Assembly: GCF_029840635.1 (NCBI RefSeq)
Contig: NZ_JAOCCU010000018.1
Span: 62,001-126,000 of the forward strand
Direction of reading: 5' to 3'
DNA from: Mitsuaria sp. GD03876
Lineage (GTDB): Bacteria > Pseudomonadota > Gammaproteobacteria > Burkholderiales > Burkholderiaceae_C
Length of the DNA: 64,000 nt
The position numbers and the translations under genes were made by a program. This document shows positions 4,444 through 36,277 of this stretch, one piece after another; position 1 is the stretch's first letter; the number at the start of each line of letters is the position of its first letter. The notes under the pieces are model-generated. The model saw only the letters and a list, made by a program, of their open reading frames with translations. It was not told the DNA's origin and did not search any database.

Positions 4444-4561
4444 CTCAGCCGGCGGCATGGGACCCCTCCTTGCACGCCGCTCAGCCAGCGGCACGGGGGC
4501 CCCTCGTCGCTCAATCTCCTCCTCGCCGCTCGGAATTCGCGCCGAGGGGCCCCCGTGCCGC
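4444..4561. repeat. Long inverted-repeat element (copy A) with a preceding half copy
   Basis: Perfect 19-bp arms at 4488-4506 and 4543-4561 (GCGGCACGGGGGCCCCTCG and its complement) enclose a 36-nt loop. The arms extend outward to about 24 bp with mismatches. A diverged direct repeat of the left arm lies at 4444-4469, offset by 36 bp. The loop, read on the minus strand, contains GCGAATTCCGAGCG, GGAGG and TGAGCG, closely matching the loop of the element at 36095-36181. It lies between the convergent ends of xthA and the Bug gene, so a bidirectional termination role is possible, though there is no T tract. Confidence 0.75.
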
Positions 4562-4628
4562 CGGCTTCGAAGTCACTGACTGCACCGAGTTCGCTGACTG
4601 CGGGAGGGAGTGGGGCAAGGGAAGTTGA

Positions 4629-36028: not shown

Positions 36029-36100
36029 CAAGGCATCGACGCTGCCGCACCGCACCACGGCGTCGAAGCCGCCCCACCGCGCCACGGCGTCCAAGCCGCC
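36029..36100. repeat. 27-bp imperfect tandem repeat, 2.7 copies
   Basis: Copies at 36029-36055, 36056-36082 and 36083-36100. Copies 1 and 2 agree at 21 of 27 bases; copies 2 and 3 at 17 of 18. Core unit CACGGCGTCGAAGCCGCC. It continues the frame of the amidotransferase after its stop, giving G-[IV]-[DEQ]-A-A-type repeats, and runs into the left arm of the inverted repeat at 36095. Confidence 0.75.
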
Positions 36101-36181
36101 TGGGAGACCGGTGCCCCTTGAAGCGAATGCCGAGCGTGCGGAGGCGCCTGAGCGGAAAGGGGCACCGGTCTTCCAGGCGGC
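36095..36181. repeat. Long inverted-repeat element (copy B)
   Basis: Twenty-five-base arms (36095-36119 and 36157-36181) pair at 24 of 25 positions, around a 37-nt loop containing GCGAATGCCGAGCG, GGAGG and TGAGCG. The loop closely matches that of the element at 4488-4561 on the opposite strand, though the arms differ. It lies between the amidotransferase stop and the histidine kinase start, in non-coding DNA. Confidence 0.8.
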
Positions 36182-36277
36182 CTGCTCGGTCGCCGCAGTC
36201 GCCTGCCCATCCCACCTGCCCGCCATTCACCGCATCCAGTGGCGACGCGGCGAGGAATGCTGACCTAGACTGCCCGC

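Follow-up and report, generated by a model that had tools for sequence, protein, structure and literature searches.

A small dispersed hairpin repeat in Roseateles with a fixed loop, covarying arms and stem irregularities that fit folding of one strand

ERIC sequences are imperfect intergenic palindromes of about 100 bp. The Roseateles element described here has the same general form and is found in both orientations, as is the case for other stem-loop repeat families (PMC2267715; this and the other papers cited were consulted in part). It is unlike these families in that its loop is fixed, its arms covary and its wobble pairs are biased to one strand, and the part of PMC2267715 consulted contains no test of that kind.

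The nearest documented precedent is TnpA-REP (RAYT), which recognizes REPs strand-specifically as single-stranded DNA and, in the E. coli group, needs an irregularity in the stem (PMC8266576, in part). Like REPs and REPINs, the Roseateles element is a dispersed extragenic palindrome, and the strand-specific recognition by TnpA-REP would have its counterpart in a one-strand fold that we read here from sequence alone. It is unlike them in several respects. The stems are about 25 bp long and variable in sequence, and the conserved part is the central internal loop. There are about 29 copies in the Roseateles genome, versus a REP copy number that is usually above 100 (PMC2817692, in part). The element also lacks a GTAG tag, and no transposase was linked to it at 20 Y1 loci. 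A second comparison can be made with Rickettsia palindromic elements (RPEs), inserts of 20-30 residues that are also found within genes and are translated (PMC3733652, in part); all 13 Roseateles copies within three gene clusters leave the reading frame open. The two differ in that their hosts are unrelated and the Roseateles copies are mostly intergenic, the element lying between domains in three proteins of the genome studied.

Two hairpins in the window and their relatives in the genus

The window is the whole stretch of DNA that was analyzed, 64,000 nucleotides (64 kb) in length, and genes were called with our own codon-usage caller trained on it. The original prediction described a hairpin at 36095..36181 with arms paired at 24 of 25 positions around a 37-nt loop (copy B), and an opposite-strand element whose loop, at 4507-4542, has the same motifs (copy A). 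Both were confirmed, copy A spanning 4483-4566, and their features are as follows.

36095..36119, + strand: 5' arm of copy B, part of a 25-bp stem (sequence, inverted-repeat scan, shuffle folding)
36120..36156, + strand: conserved 37-nt loop of copy B, with an internal GCGA / TGAGC motif and an inner hairpin (loop pattern, alignment, covariation)
36157..36181, + strand: 3' arm of copy B, forming 24 Watson-Crick pairs and one G·T wobble with the 5' arm
36184..36191, + strand: conserved 3' flank GCTCGGTC of copy B, just beyond the stem (edge-motif enrichment in 81 copies)
36048..36100, + strand: tandem duplication (about 26 bp, imperfect) immediately 5' of copy B, reaching into its 5' arm (read from sequence)
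4543..4566, - strand: 5' arm of copy A (sequence, inverted-repeat scan, shuffle folding)
4507..4542, - strand: conserved loop of copy A (sequence, loop pattern)
4483..4506, - strand: 3' arm of copy A (sequence, inverted-repeat scan, shuffle folding)
4447..4466, - strand: degenerate second copy of the copy A 3' arm (20-nt repeat, 85% complementary to 4547-4566)

The odd pair of copy B is a G·T wobble on the + strand, and the inverted-repeat scan offered an alternative with 28-nt arms (93%). The loop contains GCGAATGCCGAGCG (36123-36136), GGAGG and TGAGCG. In copy A, read on the minus strand, 23 of 24 arm positions pair and the remaining one is a G·T on the loop-sense strand; its loop has GCGAATTCCGAGCG (4540-4527) together with the loop motifs of copy B. 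The two copies fold much more stably than their 200 dinucleotide shuffles, with z-scores of -7.5 and -7.9. The genes on either side of copy B encode a class II glutamine amidotransferase and a histidine kinase. Copy A has convergent neighbours, an endonuclease/exonuclease/phosphatase-family gene and a TctC-type receptor gene, and lies between their ends. Short tandem duplications like that at 36048-36100 also flank other copies (L196 and L218).

Within the window alone, the loop pattern with two mismatches allowed was seen 4 times versus 7.8 expected, no excess over chance. Taken by itself this count speaks against the family, so it is the whole-genome count that decides that copies A and B are real. 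The 14-base loop core GCGAATNCCGAGCG occurred 22 times in the genome versus 0 times for the pattern read backwards, and all 22 matches form the loop of a long hairpin. This count bears out the dispersed family with a fixed loop that had been proposed, and it answers the doubt, raised at the same time, that there might be no further copies or that the loop similarity might be at chance level. A scan of the genome and its relatives with a covariance model had also been suggested, and it was run with a model built from 31 copies. The genome itself yielded 47 matches at E≤1; with opposite-strand echoes removed, 29 matches at E<1e-3 and two weak ones were left. Hairpin B is one of about 29 copies of a new small dispersed repeat in this Roseateles genome.

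Nine of 16 genomes of the genus matched the model at E≤0.001: six of them, including the genome studied, carry the core family, two (G014 and G015) carry a cousin with a shorter loop, and one (G004) has a single weak match. Among 200 genomes sampled from the taxonomic family (141 genera), scanned with stricter filters that may lose weak matches, only the genome studied matched at 1e-5. The strict loop pattern gave 27 matches in the named genome collection. Of these, 26 were in Roseateles, Mitsuaria or Rubrivivax-labelled records (Roseateles noduli, Roseateles chitinivorans, Mitsuaria sp. PDC51 and a Rubrivivax-labelled MAG). The other was a Rokubacteria record, which has no such hairpin fold and was rejected as a family member. 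The same pattern had 0 matches in viral contigs. Within what was sampled, the element was found only in the genus Roseateles.

The original prediction knew of no named family that would fit, and comparison with Rfam agreed: over the window there were 0 matches at gathering thresholds, and permissive scans returned only matches far below gathering, none of them credible and mostly to microRNA models (the best, MIR949, at 30.2 bits versus 100). In literature searches on Roseateles and Mitsuaria hairpins, palindromic repeats and covariation, which mostly did not extend to subscription journals, the family was not named in the titles and abstract beginnings among the matches listed.

A set of 81 copies was picked from the own-genome and genus scans, with 28, 16, 13, 13, 7 and 4 copies per genome. 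It leaves out opposite-strand echoes, a contig-end copy in G011, the tandem copy G000:C20:3837, the two weak matches of the genome studied, the single weak G004 match and matches beyond those listed, so some loci counted below as own-only may have weaker relatives. The cousins (G014 and G015; L187, L188, L190, L191 and L193) form intergenic tandem arrays with a unit of about 150-350 bp, and in some arrays the hairpins alternate between the two strands. The 39 cousins analyzed represent seven stretches and four single loci, and many are near-identical tandem units.

Covariation and strand bias in the stem

The arms, about 25 bp long, drift in sequence yet stay paired, and they close a fixed internal loop that consists of a GC pair step, GA facing GA and a short inner helix. 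Stem length varied from 19 to 32 bp in the 81 copies. Over 31 core copies, 21 of 29 pairs had changed on both sides. The covariation score was 0.462, versus 0.152 ± 0.012 when shuffled and 0.077-0.135 when slid, and the claim of covarying arms was thereby upheld; for 18 cousins the score was 0.619 versus 0.166 shuffled. The copies are related, so these counts and the wobble counts given below are counts of non-independent events. In the core inner helix the pair at columns 36-53 was U-A in 17 copies and G-C in all of the other 14, and the cousin pair 31-51 was C-G in 15 and U-A in 3. Two pairs of the innermost cousin helix fail, in 6 and 1 rows (7 of 72 inner-hairpin cells unpaired). The GA facing GA between the inner helices was invariant in all 31 core rows and all 18 cousin rows; such GA/GA steps would be expected to form sheared G·A pairs. 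A pseudoknot of the loop sequence CCGAGCG with the 3' flank CGCTCGG was considered and rejected: it had no covariation support, the flank staying GCTCGG when the loop reads GGAGCA or GGAGCC.

An A·C pair on one strand is a G·T pair on the other, and a strand-symmetric cause should therefore give equal numbers of the two. All non-Watson-Crick pairs of the stem were treated alike and oriented by the loop-sense strand. On this strand the 81 copies had 45 G·T, 2 T·G, 0 A·C and 16 other mismatches (wobbles 47:0), and with one copy per locus the counts were 22 G·T or T·G, 0 A·C and 11 other. The bias persisted in the 22 copies of the genome studied that were found by the loop alone (19:0) and in the 57 copies with the long loop pattern (30:0), and hence it was not made by the covariance model. 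In the 39 partly duplicated cousins there were 25 G·T, 24 T·G, 1 C·A and 5 others (49:1); taken by array and strand (14 groups), G·T was present in 11, T·G in 8 and C·A in 1. The ratio was 22:0 in 32 copies where the sense strand is not the one read by the upstream or host gene, and 25:0 in the other 49 copies. In all 81 copies the sense strand was predicted to form the more stable fold, by RNA and DNA parameters alike; among control pieces, folded with RNA parameters, this was so in 33 of 81. Differences between orthologs, de-duplicated by locus, position and pair of states, told the same way: 114 were changes from one Watson-Crick pair to another with both sides changed, 29 were Watson-Crick versus G·T (23 of them one-sided), 10 involved other mismatches and 0 involved A·C.

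Of the 47 core-family wobbles, 45 are 5'G·3'T, concentrated 18-19 bases before the GCGA motif, a preference that the mobile-repeat reading leaves unexplained and that the cousins lack (25 and 24). Wobbles may have been inherited from donor copies and hence are not counts of independent events, and some of the bias could also be imitated by strand-biased mutation (C to T in the sense strand). A control with 37 E. coli REPs from seven K-12 stretches, scored on the GTAG strand, gave 38 A·C, 37 A·G and 1 T·C, counts that consist almost entirely of the fixed bulge and come from a search pattern that fixes most stem positions and hardly sees variation.

The original prediction left a choice between a structured RNA and a repeated cruciform. 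The first is a possible reading; the second is contradicted by the wobbles, 47:0 and 49:1 on the loop-sense strand, since a cruciform folds both strands. More broadly, the element could be a double-stranded palindromic protein site or a cruciform whose arms are kept alike by template switching in replication. Template switching would make arms covary without selection, and this explanation would suit both the long near-perfect palindromes and the tandem duplications beside copies. However, a cruciform, a double-stranded site or arm copying predicts no such strand bias, symmetric mechanisms requiring G·T to equal A·C, and template switching leaves the fixed loop unexplained. We regard this explanation as quite improbable.

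The stem irregularities that are left are compatible with predicted folding of the loop-sense strand and not with that of the other strand. It seems that only one DNA strand has kept its ability to fold, a sign of a mobile or regulatory element that works as a folded single strand. Tolerance of G·U on one strand only is a classic mark of RNA. A single-stranded DNA stage would fit at least as well as a structured RNA, because the element lies either way round relative to neighbouring genes and appears mobile. A first use of these counts is that sequence data by themselves suggest one strand of a dispersed DNA palindrome to be the working molecule, and loop-oriented counts of G·T versus A·C could be applied to other orphan palindromic repeats, where they would separate single-strand or RNA elements from double-stranded ones.

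Genomic context, gain and retention

At 39 independent loci the flanking genes were arranged +- in 12 cases, ++ in 10, -- in 9 and -+ in 3, and 5 loci overlapped genes. The median distance to the stop codon was 16 nt for an opposite-strand gene (22 loci) and 70 nt for a same-strand gene (23 loci), and 12 of 34 intergenic loci had no upstream gene on the sense strand.

A long G+C-rich hairpin after stop codons is a property shared with intrinsic terminators, and a bidirectional terminator family with freely evolving stems would explain why copies lie between convergent genes, just after stop codons. Unlike those of terminators, the 3' flanks inspected do not consistently start with a T-tract, and ordinary T-tract terminators are found elsewhere in the window. 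Nor does a terminator need a fixed loop of 32-33 nt, and some copies lie within ORFs. Terminator-like hairpins coexisted with the element at three loci examined. At L196 such a hairpin, present in relatives too, follows the stop codon with the element in between; the hairpin retained at L213 also has counterparts in relatives, and L218 has its own. The element is an addition there and not the terminator. We find a terminator family hardly credible.

Eighteen of the 39 loci were common to two to six species. Between orthologs the flanks differed at 37% of aligned sites, the arms at 14-15% and the loop at 10%. Retention of this kind is what a structured RNA of the host would lead one to expect, for instance a 3'-UTR or small-RNA element whose stem protects or punctuates transcripts and whose loop binds an RNA-binding protein. 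The tolerance of G·U on one strand, the short distances to stop codons in genes of either orientation and the invariant GA-facing-GA columns of both alignments argue in the same direction. On the other side, orientation to transcription is not fixed, as the 12 intergenic loci without a sense upstream gene illustrate, a crude sigma-70 scan of one copy per locus at 39 loci gave no clear sense promoter signal, and two clusters are antisense within coding genes. A host RNA is a real possibility, if a doubtful one.

In this set sixteen loci were singletons of the genome studied, and for 11 of these two to seven relatives have an orthologous gene end (L206 in 2, L208 in 5 and the other nine loci in 7, some at 71-81% identity), and 69 of 70 regions, searched to 300-420 nt past the matched gene end, had no comparable hairpin. 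The exception is a variant in G005 at the L220 site, on account of which L220 cannot be called strictly own-only. Copies absent from all relatives examined are most simply explained as gains. The element-free sites gave neither a target-site duplication nor an exact point of insertion, the boundaries being too diverged to call, and the arms vary among copies; a MITE moved by a DNA transposase would be known by such a duplication and by fixed terminal inverted repeats. A different palindrome, with arms like CCCTCTCCCG..CGGGAGAGGG, was observed at gene ends of relatives where the genome studied has the element (L283 and L305 at the L209 site; L240, L245 and L309 at the L218 site). An A+T-rich palindrome with arms like TTTGGTCA, perhaps another repeat family, was seen at the L220 site (L232, L250 and L296; G011, G006 and G010).

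Three gene clusters with 6, 4 and 3 copies carried the 88-bp element in an open frame in 13 of 13 cases. Twelve of these copies were inside one called ORF; in the other case (L155) the gene was split by the caller and the frame is open across the element. Two ABC proteins of the genome studied have the element between their two ATPase domains, antisense to the gene in both: a fused peptide-type protein (residues 337-367) and a sugar-type protein (residues 271-301). In a sigma-54 activator it lies between the AAA lid and the Fis-type DNA-binding domain (residues 449-479). These are cases of a palindromic repeat in frame between protein domains in a betaproteobacterium, and one such gene is kept in six species.

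Mobility, outer motifs and candidate enzymes

The data demonstrate dispersal, presence or absence between species, retention at shared loci and a one-strand fold. We put the odds at about even (a probability near 0.5) that the element is a miniature mobile repeat resembling REPs and RPEs, recognized as a folded single strand of fixed polarity via the fixed internal loop. An enzyme would recognize the folded strand through this loop, the outer GCTCGGT and CTCGGT motifs may be its ends or the places where it is cut, and the element would spread through an intermediate of single-stranded DNA or RNA, on the model proposed for TnpA-REP and REPs. Once settled, the hairpin would be tolerated next to stop codons and in linkers between protein domains, where it may even be kept. 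Against a mobile repeat stands the great divergence of arms among copies: simple copying would leave them alike, unless they evolve fast.

Of the 81 copies, 30 have GCTCGGT within the 60 nt that follow the element, and its first occurrence is at offset 0-4 in all 30. CTCGGT was found within 60 nt 5' of the element in 17 of 81, and in 9 it ends 4-5 nt away. Shuffled expectations were 0.55 and 1.8, and 162 control pieces gave 0 and 1. Enriched edge motifs were CTCGGTG and GCTCGGTC. On this sequence evidence GCTCGGT and CTCGGT may mark the element ends.

A RAYT-mobilised REP/REPIN family in the strict sense would likewise have a strand-specific folded hairpin, a mostly extragenic position near 3' ends and tandem clusters such as those of the cousins, and the genome studied has two Y1 transposase genes. 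The edges do not fit: in the 16 nt across each edge of the 81 copies GTAG was found 0 and 0 times (shuffled 4.8 and 1.5) and CGTC 5 and 13 times (shuffled 5.8 and 12.2, no excess), while other edge motifs were enriched. The covariance model at E≤1 placed no element at 20 Y1 transposase loci of the genus, about 3.3 kb each, and the transposases are equally present in element-free genomes. Stems of 19-32 bp also exceed the 6-13 bp of GTAG-family REPs (PMC3733652, in part). Taken strictly, a REP/REPIN family is very improbable.

The search for a mobilising enzyme in 16 genus members, covering Y1 transposase, TnpB and reverse transcriptase, gave no co-occurrence with the element. Y1 transposase (PF01797) was rejected as the mobiliser, being present in 16 of 16 members with or without the element. 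TnpB (PF07282) was found in 0 of 16, and reverse transcriptase in 14 of 16 but not in the element-bearing G011. A more specific and rather unlikely variant of the mobile-repeat reading is a class of element in which the fixed internal loop of one folded strand would be the main recognition signal, the arms would drift under a pairing constraint only, and spread would depend on an enzyme unlike RAYT, possibly via an RNA copy. If true, such a class would supply the host with 3'-end hairpins and protein linkers.

Y1 transposase matches numbered two in 14 of the 16 genus members and one in two members. The two Y1 (REP-type) transposase genes of the genome studied are L266 (on C29) and L268 (on C67), and its single reverse-transcriptase domain match (PF00078) is located at G000:C67:39791-40414.
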